Source: Salinisphaera shabanensis E1L3A (GTDB lineage: Bacteria > Pseudomonadota > Gammaproteobacteria > Nevskiales > Salinisphaeraceae). Taken from it: a stretch of DNA of 64,000 bases. The position numbers were made by a program, and so were the translations under genes. Location of the stretch: NCBI RefSeq assembly GCF_000215955.2, contig NZ_AFNV02000019.1:1-64000 (forward strand). The letters are read 5' to 3'. Below are positions 39,686-62,087 of the stretch, one piece after another. The notes under the pieces are model-generated. The model was not told the DNA's origin. It saw only the letters and a program-made list of their open reading frames with translations, and searched no databases. Each line of letters begins with the position of its first letter. The stretch's first letter is position 1.

Positions 39686-39720
39686 TTGTGCACACAGGCT
39701 TTTGACAACGCTGTGGACAA
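39686..39720. repeat. DnaA-box-like unit 1
   Basis: Three 9-mers in fixed order: TTGTGCACA (39686-39694, forward), TTTTGACAA (39700-39708, reverse, two mismatches) and TGTGGACAA (39712-39720, reverse; its complement TTGTCCACA is the DnaA box favoured in GC-rich bacteria). Start-to-start spacing is 14 and 12 bases, the same as in units 3 and 4. The unit lies in the 500-base gap between the SLC13 and tautomerase genes, which has no gene. Confidence 0.6.
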
Positions 39721-39770
39721 CCCGTTGGTACCGTCGCGAAACGCTTGCGGCACAGGGTGTGCGGGCTTAT

Positions 39771-39787
39771 TGCGCAATTATTGATCA
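39771..39787. repeat. 17-bp AT-rich element, copy 1
   Basis: TGCGCAATTATTGATCA, containing a GATC site, is identical to 40632-40648. It begins 59 bases after the start of the reverse box of unit 1, exactly as copy 2 does after unit 3. Confidence 0.65.
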
Positions 39788-39916
39788 GCCTCGAATACCA
39801 AAGATATAGCGGCGCTGGCGACGAGTTGCGTCGCCTAAAAGCCAGTTCGTCACAAACGCTCGCGGTTCTGCTGTGGGTATTGTTCAGCGCGGTGGGCGGA
39901 CACATCCCGAATGCGG

Positions 39917-39953
39917 TGTTACACACAGGAGGACGGGATAAGCCTGTGGAAAA
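39917..39953. repeat. DnaA-box-like unit 2
   Basis: TGTTACACA (39917-39925), ACGGGATAA (39933-39941) and TGTGGAAAA (39945-39953). It is the most degenerate of the four units (spacing 16 and 12) but keeps the order and the final reverse box. A further TGTGGATCG follows at about 39990. Confidence 0.45.
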
Positions 39954-40112
39954 AATGCGCACAGAGCGCGGAATCGCCCACGCGAGGCCGTGTGGATCGG
40001 TATCGATCAATTTTCATCCAGGCGCGTTACGGCGCCCCATGAACATCACGCATTGCATGCGCTGGCTGCGATGTGCATTCATGGGCGTTCATCAAACGAA
40101 CGGAAAGCCTTC

Positions 40113-40511
40113 ATGCCTTATCTGCAACTCGACGTGCCCATCGAATATCCCCAGGAAACCAAACGGACGCTGGCACGGCGGCTGGGTGAAACCTACGCCG
40201 AGCGCATGCACACCACACCGCGTCGCGTAAGCGTGGGTTTTCGCGAACTCACCGGTGGCAGTCTCTGGCGTTGCGGCGAGGGGGAGCCTGAACCGGGCGT
40301 GGTAATGATGTGCGATATCCGCCGCGGACGCCCAACCGAATGGCGCGAAGAGCTGGCGATCGCCCTGCTCGACCTGTGTGTAGAACATCTGGAAGTGCCA
40401 CGCGAACGCATTGCTATCGAATTCACCCAGCATGCCGGCGATGAAATGTTTCGCGACGACGAAGGCTGGGCACGCGACTGGAGCGAATCCGAGGCCGAGT
40501 CGGACGCCTAG
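40113..40511 (+). CDS. Tautomerase superfamily protein
   Basis: A 132-residue protein of the tautomerase fold: two beta-alpha-beta halves, with Pro2 (the catalytic Pro1 after methionine removal) in MPYLQLDVPIEYP. The size and paired halves resemble the malonate semialdehyde decarboxylase/cis-CaaD-like or MIF-like members rather than the 62-residue 4-oxalocrotonate tautomerase. The chemistry and substrate are open. The ATG at 40113 is required for an N-terminal proline; the open frame before it (from 39990) is therefore not coding. The gene is enclosed by DnaA-box-like repeat units on both sides. Confidence 0.8.
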   Translation: MPYLQLDVPIEYPQETKRTLARRLGETYAERMHTTPRRVSVGFRELTGGSLWRCGEGEPEPGVVMMCDIRRGRPTEWREELAIALLDLCVEHLEVPRERIAIEFTQHAGDEMFRDDEGWARDWSESEAESDA

Positions 40512-40546
40512 AACGGTCTTTGCGGGCTGCTCGGCGGTACAAAATA

Positions 40547-40581
40547 GTTTTCACAATCGCACTGGACAAGCCTGTGGACAA
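40547..40581. repeat. DnaA-box-like unit 3
   Basis: GTTTTCACA (40547-40555), ACTGGACAA (40561-40569) and TGTGGACAA (40573-40581), spacing 14 and 12 bases. It begins 36 bases after the tautomerase stop. Confidence 0.6.
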
Positions 40582-40631
40582 GCCGTAGTCAAACCTCGCA
40601 AAGCATTGGCGGACCTGCATTCAGGCCACGC

Positions 40632-40648
40632 TGCGCAATTATTGATCA
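40632..40648. repeat. 17-bp AT-rich element, copy 2
   Basis: Exact copy of 39771-39787, again 59 bases from the start of the preceding TGTGGACAA. The sequence between box and element is also alignable (about 12 of 17 bases in TCGCAAAGCATTGGCGG versus TCGCGAAACGCTTGCGG), so the two segments are diverged copies of one module. Confidence 0.65.
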
Positions 40649-40714
40649 CGCGCCGCAGGCCTTGACGTACGGGGTTTTTGCCGATCCACACTAGGGTCGA
40701 ATATCCGCCCAGGT

Positions 40715-40749
40715 TTGTACACACAGCCTTGGGATAACGCTGTGGACAA
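40715..40749. repeat. DnaA-box-like unit 4
   Basis: TTGTACACA (40715-40723), TTGGGATAA (40729-40737) and TGTGGACAA (40741-40749), spacing 14 and 12. The rest of the 490-base gap (40512-41002) has no gene; CGATCCACA near 40682 is one more weak match, and the distal end carries the channel-gene terminator. Confidence 0.6.
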
Positions 40750-40945
40750 ATCGAGCACAGACGCCGCAAACGCCGGTCGTCACTGGACTGTCACATCGGC
40801 GGCTAATTTATGCGCAACAACGCCGCACCGTCGCCCGGCTTGCGCAATCCGGCGCGCCCCGCAATCTATCCGATAACCGACTAAACGGCGCCGAGCACAT
40901 ACATAATTCGCGATGCGGTTGATGTCGCAATCACGTATGGCGAGC

Positions 40946-41002: not shown

Positions 41003-43426
41003 CTAGGTATCTGCCGGCGCATCACCGGTTTCCTCCGGTGCGGCATCGTCGCCTTTACGCCGTGCCTTACGCGGCTCGGCATGTTCGCCACTGTCCACCG
41101 GCGCTTCGAGAATACGCAAGTTCGCCGGCGGCGCCTTGCCGTCCCGGTCCTCGCCGAAGTAGACCGTCTGATGCGGGAACGGAATCTCGATCCCGGCCCG
41201 ATCGAAATGCATCTTGACCAACCGGTTGAAGGCACGGCCCACGCCCCACTGCGTGCCCGGCTTGGTCTTGATCATGATCCGGATATTGACCGAGCTGTCG
41301 GCCAGCGCCGTCACACCCGGCACGGTCATGTCCTCGAGGATATTGCCGCGTACGTTCTCGTCGGCCTTGAGTTCCTCGAAAGCCTGACGCAGGTGATAGA
41401 CGGCGTTGTCGATATCCTCGCGGTAGCCGATGCCGTACTCGGTACGGAAGTAAGCGAAGTCGCGCTGATAGTTGGTTACAGTGCTTGCCGACGAGAACGG
41501 CACGATATGGTATGAGCCGTCCAGATCGCGAATACCGACGGAACGAATAGTGAGTCGTTCCGCGGTACCGGTCACACCACCTACCGTGACTACGTCGCCG
41601 GTGTTCATCGCATTCTCGAGCTGGATGAACACGCCGGTGATGATGTCCTGCACCAGCTTCTGGGCGCCGAAGCCGATGGCCAGACCCAGCACACCGGCAC
41701 CGGCGATCAACGGGCCGATATCCACACCAATCTGAGATAGCGAAATCATCAGCGTCATGGTGATGATCACGATCGCCAATGCGTTACGGAACAGCTCCAG
41801 AAGCGTTTCCTGACGCGGTGTAGGCTTGCCCGCACCGGTATTCGGGTTCAGACGGTGCTCGATAATGCTGGCTGCAATCAGCCAAAGCAGTGCCGCGGCC
41901 AGCAACACGATCGCCACGCGGGTCAGCGTGGAAACGGTCTGCAGACCGACATCCGAGGCAAGCCATGCGCCCAGATCGAACAGGTCCCAGGCATTGGCCA
42001 CCACCAGCGCGAATACCACCAGGATCACCACCCGAATAACCTTGAGCGCATTGGGCACGTAGGAATTCACCCGCGCCTCGAGCATGGGCAGCTTGGCGCG
42101 GACGTTGTCCGAGAACGTCACACGCTTACCGATCGCCTTCGATAGCAAGCCGGAAAGGCCAAGGGCAACCGCCGCCGCGATGAGTGTTTCCAGGGTCGCC
42201 GACAACATGAACGGCAGCGCATTCGTCGGATCGACCTGGCTGGAAACGAACAGCGTGGTGAAATAAGCCACGGCCAGAATCACCCACAGCTTCGACATCA
42301 GCTTGAACAGCACACCGAAGAAGCCGATCGACGCCGTCTCCGACATCCGATGCAGGCGTTCATTGAACAGCTGACGGTTTTTGAAAATAACCACCAGCGC
42401 GTAGATATAGGCGCCACCCATGAGCAGAAAGCTCACAACCGCGCCCAGAAAGAACGACAGCTGTACGTTGATGATCGGCACCAGCACCAGCAGGCCGTAG
42501 CCGATGATGCCGACGAACCAGCGCAGACGCACGCTCCACCAACCGGCGATGGAACTGGGTATGTTGATCAACCGCAGGCTGTCGTAACGCGCTGCAAACA
42601 CGGCACGAATCGCGACTTTGGTGAGCTCGATAAGCGCGAAAGCGTTGATGAACAACGACTCGCGCGTGCCGATGCTGCCGGCCTCGCCGAACGCGTAGAG
42701 GCCGGCCAGATAGCCCGCGCCGCAGGCCAGAAGAACGACCGCAACATCGACGATTGCCGCCAGTACGATGGCTGTACCTCGTCGAATCAGCACGCCGGCG
42801 CCGGTTTCGGCGCGCTGTGAAAACCGGCCGATTGCCGAAAACACCGTGCCCGCGAGCAAACGCAGAACCAGAAAGGAAGCCACCGTCGCGACGCCCACCA
42901 ACGCAAATGTAGTAATCGCGGCGACGAACGCGGACATATCGAATTCCGGCCCCGGGCCGCGATCTTCATCAAGCGACGTGAGCATCGTCCACGTAGCCGA
43001 TACACGCTCGCCGATTACCTCGGCCCACCCGGCCGTGGTCTGGGCGAAACGCCGGGCAAAGGACACCCGCTCTTCGCTGGCGGCGGCCTGTTCGGCTGTC
43101 GCGCTATCGCCGTCGGGGGCTTTTTCCAGCGCCGGATCCTGGCCGGCCTCGGGCGGCGGCGGCAATGCGCTCTCGGCGTTCTCGTCATTACCCGCCTGTG
43201 CCGCCTGCCGCAGCTGATCGACGATCTGCGCGCGCGATTCGTCGTTTTCCAGTAAATCGGCGAGTTGCGTGAGTGGCAACACTTCGCTGGCGGTATCGCC
43301 GTTGGGCGTTTCACCCGACTGCTGGGCCATCGCCTGGGGAGCAATGACCGTTACTACAAGGGCAAAAAACAGAACGAATATCCGCAGGGCGTCAAACGCC
43401 GGTCGCGAAGCGCAGGCTCGATTCAT
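41003..43426 (-). CDS. Large MscS-family mechanosensitive ion channel
   Basis: An 807-residue channel. A signal peptide (about 1-35, ending PQAMAQ) and an acidic periplasmic region lead to about ten hydrophobic segments and then the MscS core: GVLGLAIGFGAQKLVQD is the pore helix, followed by the beta domain NTGDVVTVGGVTGTAERLTI and the alpha/beta cytoplasmic domain. It releases solutes on hypo-osmotic shock. The added N-terminal helices resemble MscK/YbdG/YnaI-type channels. ATG at 43426 with AGGAAAGA upstream starts the signal peptide; the open frame to 43552 crosses the 16-bp inverted repeat and is unlikely to be translated. Confidence 0.9.
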   Translation of the reverse strand: MNRACASRPAFDALRIFVLFFALVVTVIAPQAMAQQSGETPNGDTASEVLPLTQLADLLENDESRAQIVDQLRQAAQAGNDENAESALPPPPEAGQDPALEKAPDGDSATAEQAAASEERVSFARRFAQTTAGWAEVIGERVSATWTMLTSLDEDRGPGPEFDMSAFVAAITTFALVGVATVASFLVLRLLAGTVFSAIGRFSQRAETGAGVLIRRGTAIVLAAIVDVAVVLLACGAGYLAGLYAFGEAGSIGTRESLFINAFALIELTKVAIRAVFAARYDSLRLINIPSSIAGWWSVRLRWFVGIIGYGLLVLVPIINVQLSFFLGAVVSFLLMGGAYIYALVVIFKNRQLFNERLHRMSETASIGFFGVLFKLMSKLWVILAVAYFTTLFVSSQVDPTNALPFMLSATLETLIAAAVALGLSGLLSKAIGKRVTFSDNVRAKLPMLEARVNSYVPNALKVIRVVILVVFALVVANAWDLFDLGAWLASDVGLQTVSTLTRVAIVLLAAALLWLIAASIIEHRLNPNTGAGKPTPRQETLLELFRNALAIVIITMTLMISLSQIGVDIGPLIAGAGVLGLAIGFGAQKLVQDIITGVFIQLENAMNTGDVVTVGGVTGTAERLTIRSVGIRDLDGSYHIVPFSSASTVTNYQRDFAYFRTEYGIGYREDIDNAVYHLRQAFEELKADENVRGNILEDMTVPGVTALADSSVNIRIMIKTKPGTQWGVGRAFNRLVKMHFDRAGIEIPFPHQTVYFGEDRDGKAPPANLRILEAPVDSGEHAEPRKARRKGDDAAPEETGDAPADT

Positions 43427-43518
43427 ATCGCGTCTTTCCTCGATAGATACGGAGAGCGTAATAGTCGTTACCGCACCGCAGCACGCCAACCGACCGTGAT
43501 TTGGCGCATATAATGACC

Positions 43519-43558
43519 GCAGCAGTGCACAGTGACAAATTGCACTGTGCACTGCTGC
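43519..43558. promoter_or_regulatory. Perfect 16-bp inverted repeat upstream of the MscS-family gene
   Basis: Arms GCAGCAGTGCACAGTG (43519-43534) and CACTGTGCACTGCTGC (43543-43558) are exact reverse complements with an 8-base spacer (ACAAATTG). No T-run follows on either strand. It lies 93 bases before the channel ATG and 156 from the nuclease remnant. It could be a regulator-binding palindrome, a stable mRNA hairpin in the channel leader, or the relic of a mobile element end. Confidence 0.6.
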
Positions 43559-61907: not shown

Positions 61908-62087
61908 GAACACCTCGGTACAGCGGGCGCTGCTGTTAACAATCGGTTGCTCATTATTAGGTCGCGCACCAGTTTTAATACAAGCACTTTGCGCTGCATC
62001 TTGGACGACGTTTCGCACAGGCGATGTATTTTCCTTGGTGCACGAGCGTTAGGCACTATGGCGCTGTCTACCGCCGACGAGTGATCC

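Follow-up and report, generated by a model that had tools for sequence, protein, structure and literature searches.

The datA locus of E. coli, which promotes ATP hydrolysis, is, like the locus described here, a cluster of DnaA boxes outside the origin, a likeness that concerns the clustering and not the datA box geometry. The closest described systems are the DnaA-reactivating loci DARS1 and DARS2, which share their box spacing and have a three-box core with box I oriented opposite to boxes II and III (PMC5742627). The head-to-head arrangement of boxes I and II is essential for DARS (PMC10380432). DARS2 depends on Fis (PMC4245941, PMC8682772), and what the regulatory region of DARS1 does in vivo is described as undetermined (PMC5742627). 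Homologues of DARS2 have been found in E. coli-related species, including Vibrio and Shewanella (PMC8682772), and a review reports that many species of proteobacteria have conserved counterparts of DARS1 and DARS2 (PMC10380432). Since DARS-like sequences are already on record in other proteobacteria, the Salinisphaera locus is not a new kind of element.

Three-box units and the modules they begin

A box scan of the window, that is the whole stretch of 64,000 nucleotides analysed, found four three-box units, all on the + strand, starting at 39686, 39919, 40547 and 40715. In every unit a forward box I is followed by a 5-bp gap, a reverse box II, a 3-bp gap and a reverse box III, and the start spacings are exactly 14 and 12 bases in all four. 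The first-pass annotation had described four units, each with one forward and two reverse 9-mers; they are indeed there, with this composition in 4/4, and the start of unit 2 is corrected from 39917 to 39919. It had reported the 14/12 spacing for units 1, 3 and 4, which is right for these three, but the restriction to them is not, as unit 2 is identical and had been missed. The exact ending that it ascribed to units 1, 3 and 4 is found in all three as TGTGGACAA, and unit 2 ends in TGTGGAAAA.

The units comprise twelve DnaA-box-like sites within 1.06 kb of the window. With G permitted at position 3, as in the relaxed motif TTDTNCACA, box I has 0-1 mismatches in the four units and box III has 0, and box II is degenerate in all of them, with 2-3; measured against the published TT[A/T]TNCACA, a G at position 3 adds one mismatch to a box. 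When up to 7 total mismatches are allowed, the window contains just three further candidates, a pair on the opposite strand that overlaps units 3 and 4 (6 mismatches) and one at 62011 (7 mismatches); the earlier remark was that no such unit lies elsewhere in it. At a limit of 4 mismatches, 60 trials with sequences from a first-order Markov model of the window yielded 0 units, as compared to the four observed.

Each unit is the start of a module of about 103 bp, composed of the three-box core, a semi-conserved spacer of about 50 bp and a Fis-type palindrome. This extension, about 67 bp past the three-box part and up to the Fis-type site, had gone unremarked in the first-pass annotation. The core of module 1 (39686..39720, + strand, 14/12 spacing) has box I at 39686-39694 (+), box II at 39700-39708 (-) and box III at 39712-39720 (-); its spacer, shown to be semi-conserved by position-wise conservation, covers 39721..39771 (+), and its Fis-type site, GCGCAATTATTGATC, covers 39772..39786. 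Module 2 has its core at 39919..39953 (+), with the boxes at 39919-39927 (+), 39933-39941 (-) and 39945-39953 (-), and its site, GATCAATTTTCATCC, at 40005..40019. In module 3 the core is at 40547..40581 (+), the boxes are at 40547-40555 (+), 40561-40569 (-) and 40573-40581 (-), and GCGCAATTATTGATC is found again at 40633..40647. The core of module 4 is at 40715..40749 (+), with boxes at 40715-40723 (+), 40729-40737 (-) and 40741-40749 (-), followed by GGCTAATTTATGCGC at 40801..40815. The Fis-type sites are given no strand. A profile built from 25 modules, R1, matches the four at 39686-39789 (+, 71.0 bits, module 1 being part of the building set), 39918-40021 (55.6 bits), 40547-40649 (66.9 bits) and 40714-40817 (67.9 bits).

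The Fis-type site lies at +86 from the start of box I in all four modules, and agrees with the published consensus GnnYAnnnnnTRnnC (PMC4245941) exactly in units 1, 3 and 4 and with one mismatch in unit 2. Counted over 25 modules from eight genus genomes, and with the best offset within 84-88 chosen, the full consensus is present at +85 to +87 in 21, and the remaining four are off at one specified position. By arithmetic, the centre of the site is 63 bp from the centre of box III, about six helical turns. The spacer often contains an inverted repeat, AACGCC...GGGCGTT, as seen by eye. Six genomes (G000, G003, G005, G006, G007 and G008) have a pair of neighbouring units at a distance of 167-169 bp, which is close to sixteen helical turns; the pairs are 40547/40715 in the window and those at L077, L078, L075, L072 and L092.

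An alignment of the modules shows a conserved core, a semi-conserved spacer and a conserved Fis-type site, with little conservation past that site. Counting gaps as differences, the identity to two sister genomes is 87-91% for the core, 84-90% for the Fis-type site and 68-69% over the four spacers, as compared to 87% for CDS and only 42-47% for the remaining intergenic DNA. The first-pass annotation had named a lack of conservation in sister strains as part of a refuting outcome; between sister species the core and the Fis-type site, at 84-91% together, show about the same conservation as coding sequence.

Comparison with DARS1, DARS2 and datA

The core of DARS1 in E. coli K-12 (L079:2108) is TTATCCACT-N5-TGTGGATAA-N3-TGTGTATTA. 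DARS1 is located between bioD and uvrB, and its box orientation and 14/12 spacing are identical to those of the array units. Its reported length is 101 bp (PMC5742627), as compared to about 103 bp for the Salinisphaera module, and its spacer of about 50 bp is similar to that of the module. It differs in having no Fis-type site at +86, in being a single unit and in having other neighbour genes. DARS1 aligns ungapped to positions 3-90 of R1 (12.2 bits, E 0.0013 in 7.5 kb, filters off) and to positions 1-88 of a second profile, R2 (17.4 bits, E 4e-4 in 93 kb); run on 30 sources with default settings, R1 gave no E. coli DARS match at E<=1. Among windows drawn from three stretches of E. coli DNA, which contain the tested loci themselves, the DARS1 spacer has a rank of 0.0003 under the module spacer matrix. 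Scaled to the whole E. coli genome the E value of the match becomes about 0.8 for R1 and 0.02 for R2, and the likeness of the DARS1 spacer is therefore suggestive, not proven. Judged from the sequence, the region of about 50 bp beside the core that is a trait of DARS1 appears to be present in the module.

Upstream of mutH, at L080:1636, the DARS2 core has the arrangement, orientation and 14/12 spacing of the array units with one mismatch per box. Its position between the two deletion primers given in PMC4585315 identifies it as the published DARS2 core. A second, weaker cluster is found at L080:1952, 316 bp downstream of the core, also forward-reverse-reverse with 14/12 spacing and with 3/0/2 mismatches. 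Counted from the start of its core, DARS2 has an exact-consensus Fis match at +145, as compared to +86 in the module; the IHF-type sites that it carries between core and Fis site, at +93 and +109, are without counterpart in the module. No Fis-type site is present at 84-88 in either E. coli DARS1 or DARS2, and the DARS2 spacers gave no match to the module spacer matrix. The DARS2 homologues of PMC8682772 are described as DARS2-like, with clustered low-affinity boxes and Fis sites; in contrast to the locus described here, neither a 103-bp module with a +86 site nor a fourfold array is mentioned in the accessible text of that paper.

We scanned the surroundings of the 25 modules for IHF-type sites. 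The site TAAN4TTGATW, exact or with one mismatch, was not found round any of them, and the pattern WATCARN4TTR with one mismatch gave six scattered matches with no recurrent place. When two mismatches were allowed, a weak cluster of 4-5 appeared at +32. As a control, the one-mismatch scan recovers both sites of E. coli DARS2 (+93 and +109), which an exact-consensus scan misses. With no recurrent IHF-type site round the modules, the array is therefore not classed as DARS2. Fis-type sites, which are a DARS2 trait, appear to be present in the modules by their consensus, at another distance than in E. coli. Taking the ungapped likeness to DARS1 together with the Fis-type site, the module therefore resembles a DARS1 to which a regulator of the DARS2 type has been added.

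With its twelve box-like sites the locus would bind DnaA whether it reactivates this protein or not, and it is conceivable that the locus is instead a datA-like sink or ATP-hydrolysis site, lowering the amount of free or ATP-bound initiator. The head-to-head geometry is fixed as in DARS1 and DARS2, however, and the spacer is DARS1-like, both of which are superfluous for titration; in addition, the activity of datA depends on an IHF site (PMC4585315), whereas the array has no fixed IHF-type site. We therefore find a sink unlikely. The architecture suggests that the locus is quite probably an array of four DARS-type DnaA-reactivating modules, and that this array is probably Fis-gated. A DnaA-reactivating site had been one of the options in the first-pass annotation, and that option is well supported as regards architecture, through the geometry of DARS1 and DARS2, the ungapped DARS1 alignment, the fixed Fis-type site and the conservation. 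Several observations speak against the DARS reading: the weak box II in the four array units, the lack of a fixed IHF-type site, the DARS2 spacers that do not match, and the Fis-type site, which is not at 84-88 in E. coli DARS1 and DARS2 and has its best place outside that range in 17 of 28 class loci chosen by the core.

Distribution and neighbouring genes

In its own genome (G000, 3.76 Mb in 41 contigs) the pattern CACAN9GNNAANNCTGTGGA has five exact matches, four of them in the array and the fifth between thiD and a calcineurin-like phosphoesterase gene (Pfam). The reversed pattern, used as a control, has no match in this genome and one, in G008, across the 14 genus genomes together. At E<=0.1, R1 finds eight matches, the four of the array and those at C23:68839, C31:99574, C12:41944 and C35:9013; a genome-wide scan for the three-box unit had been proposed in the first-pass annotation, with dozens of similar units as a refuting outcome, and the number of modules is about eight. 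R1 matches occur in all 14 genus genomes, 4-12 each at this loose threshold, at which the weakest may be due to chance. At C23:68839-68939, about 28 kb past the array on the same contig and outside the window, the match is to a further module of full length, the fifth, which also has its Fis-type site. The one at C31:99574-99664 (L124:5575-5665) lacks the box I part and is situated about 140 bp before the open frame of nrdA, the gene of the ribonucleotide reductase large subunit.

The first-pass annotation had considered a dispersed repeat, and about eight related copies in one genome might also be expected of one without function. The copies are, however, found at conserved intergenic places across species, they are conserved like coding DNA while their flanks drift, and they are widely distributed with mostly few copies per genome. 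A functionless repeat is for these reasons very improbable.

The conserved neighbour of the array is the 3' end of a mechanosensitive channel gene of the NCBIfam PRK11465 type (41003..43552, - strand). This gene was found in 13/14 genus genomes, and units with <=5 mismatches follow its 3' end in all 13, with 1-4 modules each: four in G000, G003, G006 and G008, three in G004, G005, G007, G011 and G012, two in G001 and G002, and one in G009 and G013. The other flank of the array varies, with a transporter gene in most of the relatives examined and a malic-enzyme gene in G002.

The gene inside the array (40113..40511, + strand) encodes a tautomerase-family protein of 132 aa, with two units on each side as previously described. 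Its product matches Pfam Tautomerase (PF01361, E 2.7e-6), and the gene is not counted as part of a module. In the genus, it is found inside the array in four genomes only, which are those with four units. Because arrays exist without it, the tautomerase gene was ruled out as the partner gene of the array. A tautomerase homologue is also found about 136 bp from a different module in G009, G010 and G013 (L107, L119 and G009 C78:647-730), where box II is TGTGGATAA, which leaves some association between tautomerase and module.

A Fis orthologue is present in 14/14 genus genomes, and the host DnaA shares 60% identity with its E. coli counterpart. We compared 17 DnaA positions (box contacts, the arginine finger and others); 16 are the same as in E. 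coli, and the exception is V211, which is I. The open frame of an Hda-like gene (L043:1393-1953) matches family positions 1-142 of 226, under the curated cut-off, and its departure after about two thirds may be due to an assembly error or a broken gene.

The clusters of DnaA boxes could in principle mark a replication origin, either chromosomal or of an integrated replicon, another option of the first-pass annotation. The dnaA gene, with perfect DnaA boxes round it, is however on another contig, C39, and in G007, which has a 4.14-Mb chromosome in one contig, the array is 1.40 Mb from dnaA. The GC skew, a further check that had been suggested, shows no turn within the window. Taken together, this makes an origin at the locus extremely improbable. 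The G007 counterpart of the thiD-side module is 1.02 Mb from dnaA, thiD being recognised there by eye, and in the own genome the 19 kb preceding dnaA yielded no parB.

At E<=0.001, R1 has matches in 73/85 genomes of the order, which fall in 21 of 21 genera. The 16 best-scoring fetched loci outside the genus have parB beside them in eight cases and thiD in seven, and neither at one, which is on a short contig. In the class, R2 at E<=1e-4 finds the module in 185 of the 274 sampled genomes, mostly in one to three copies, and a core-only pattern finds 182/274, with zero reversed-control matches among the matches listed. Because the profiles contain the Fis site, we tested the Fis-type site on loci picked by the core alone, of which 28 out of 30 class loci were usable. 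Over the 631 offsets examined in these loci there are 23 matches to the Fis consensus, a mean of 0.036 per offset, with six at exactly +86 and eight at 84-88. With a matrix derived from the genus the best site is at 84-88 in 11/28 loci, as compared to about 0.24 by chance, and elsewhere in 17/28; the Fis-type site is therefore common, far from universal. Arrays of three modules are found in other families, at G039 C7:69917-70269 (L166), G038 C15:22701-23053 and G238 C4:287923-288713, and the modules there are spaced by about 127 bp or about 330-360 bp.

A tblastn search with 16 query proteins (including partial uvrB, bioD, mutH, thiD, parB and nrdA) gave no match round L172-L229, in flanks of <=1.5 kb, and Pfam showed no recurrent neighbour among 10 flanking ORFs of L172-L180. 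PriA was found in five of ten flanking ORFs of L200-L224, chosen from the 56 flanking ORFs listed for L200-L229. The three-box core adjoins priA, the gene of the replication-restart helicase, in five class genomes (L202, L203, L204, L217 and L218).

These neighbours raise the possibility that the modules are sites where DnaA and Fis control the transcription of adjacent genes. Modules adjoin thiD, parB, priA and nrdA in various genomes, and in E. coli nrdA is among the genes that have DnaA bound upstream of them (PMC11317965). On the other hand, modules 3 and 4 are placed between converging 3' ends, those of the tautomerase gene (+) and the channel gene (-), and the place of the array at the 3' end of the channel gene is constant in the genus even though the other flank differs. 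As an explanation of the array, transcriptional control is for this reason rather improbable. Modules before nrdA or beside priA could nevertheless have transcriptional roles, and the module before nrdA, being placed where transcriptional control is plausible, also speaks against the DARS reading.

Proposed mechanism and meaning

If the modules act as DARS, ADP-DnaA would bind head-to-head to box I and box II, and DnaA at box III would stabilise the complex. The AAA+ domains would then touch and ADP would be released, after which apo-DnaA would depart and take up ATP, so that active initiator is regenerated. The spacer of about 50 bp would be the counterpart of the stimulatory region of DARS1, and Fis at +86 would couple the reaction to the growth phase, as it does at E. 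coli DARS2. With four copies in place the local capacity would be higher. The binding of DnaA and Fis, the exchange of nucleotide and the additivity of the copies are steps that we infer from the architecture.

In the literature searched, chiefly papers in open access, there is no mention of a DARS1-type core followed by a Fis site at +86, of a class-wide extent or of a DARS array. The 103-bp module with its Fis-type site in a fixed place, the class-wide extent and the fourfold array are novel relative to that literature, and in view of the review's statement on conserved DARS-like sequences (PMC10380432) part of this may already be in print there. The dissection of DARS has so far, in the parts of the literature covered, been carried out in E. 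coli. A compact module with a Fis-type site in a fixed place, with matches in 185/274 sampled gammaproteobacterial genomes, or about two thirds, gives a sequence definition for searches and a simple substrate for biochemistry, and it offers a testable link between growth phase, through Fis, and the recharging of DnaA outside E. coli.

We tentatively suggest, as a possibility that we consider somewhat less likely than not, that the widespread and perhaps ancestral gammaproteobacterial DARS is a compact Fis-gated module of about 103 bp, with the core, a DARS1-type spacer and a Fis site at +86. E. coli DARS1, with no such Fis site, and DARS2, with a Fis site farther away and IHF sites, would then be derived forms, and Salinisphaera would have multiplied the module into arrays serving as high-capacity rechargers of DnaA. 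The fourfold array also raises the question whether the dosage of DARS tunes initiation.
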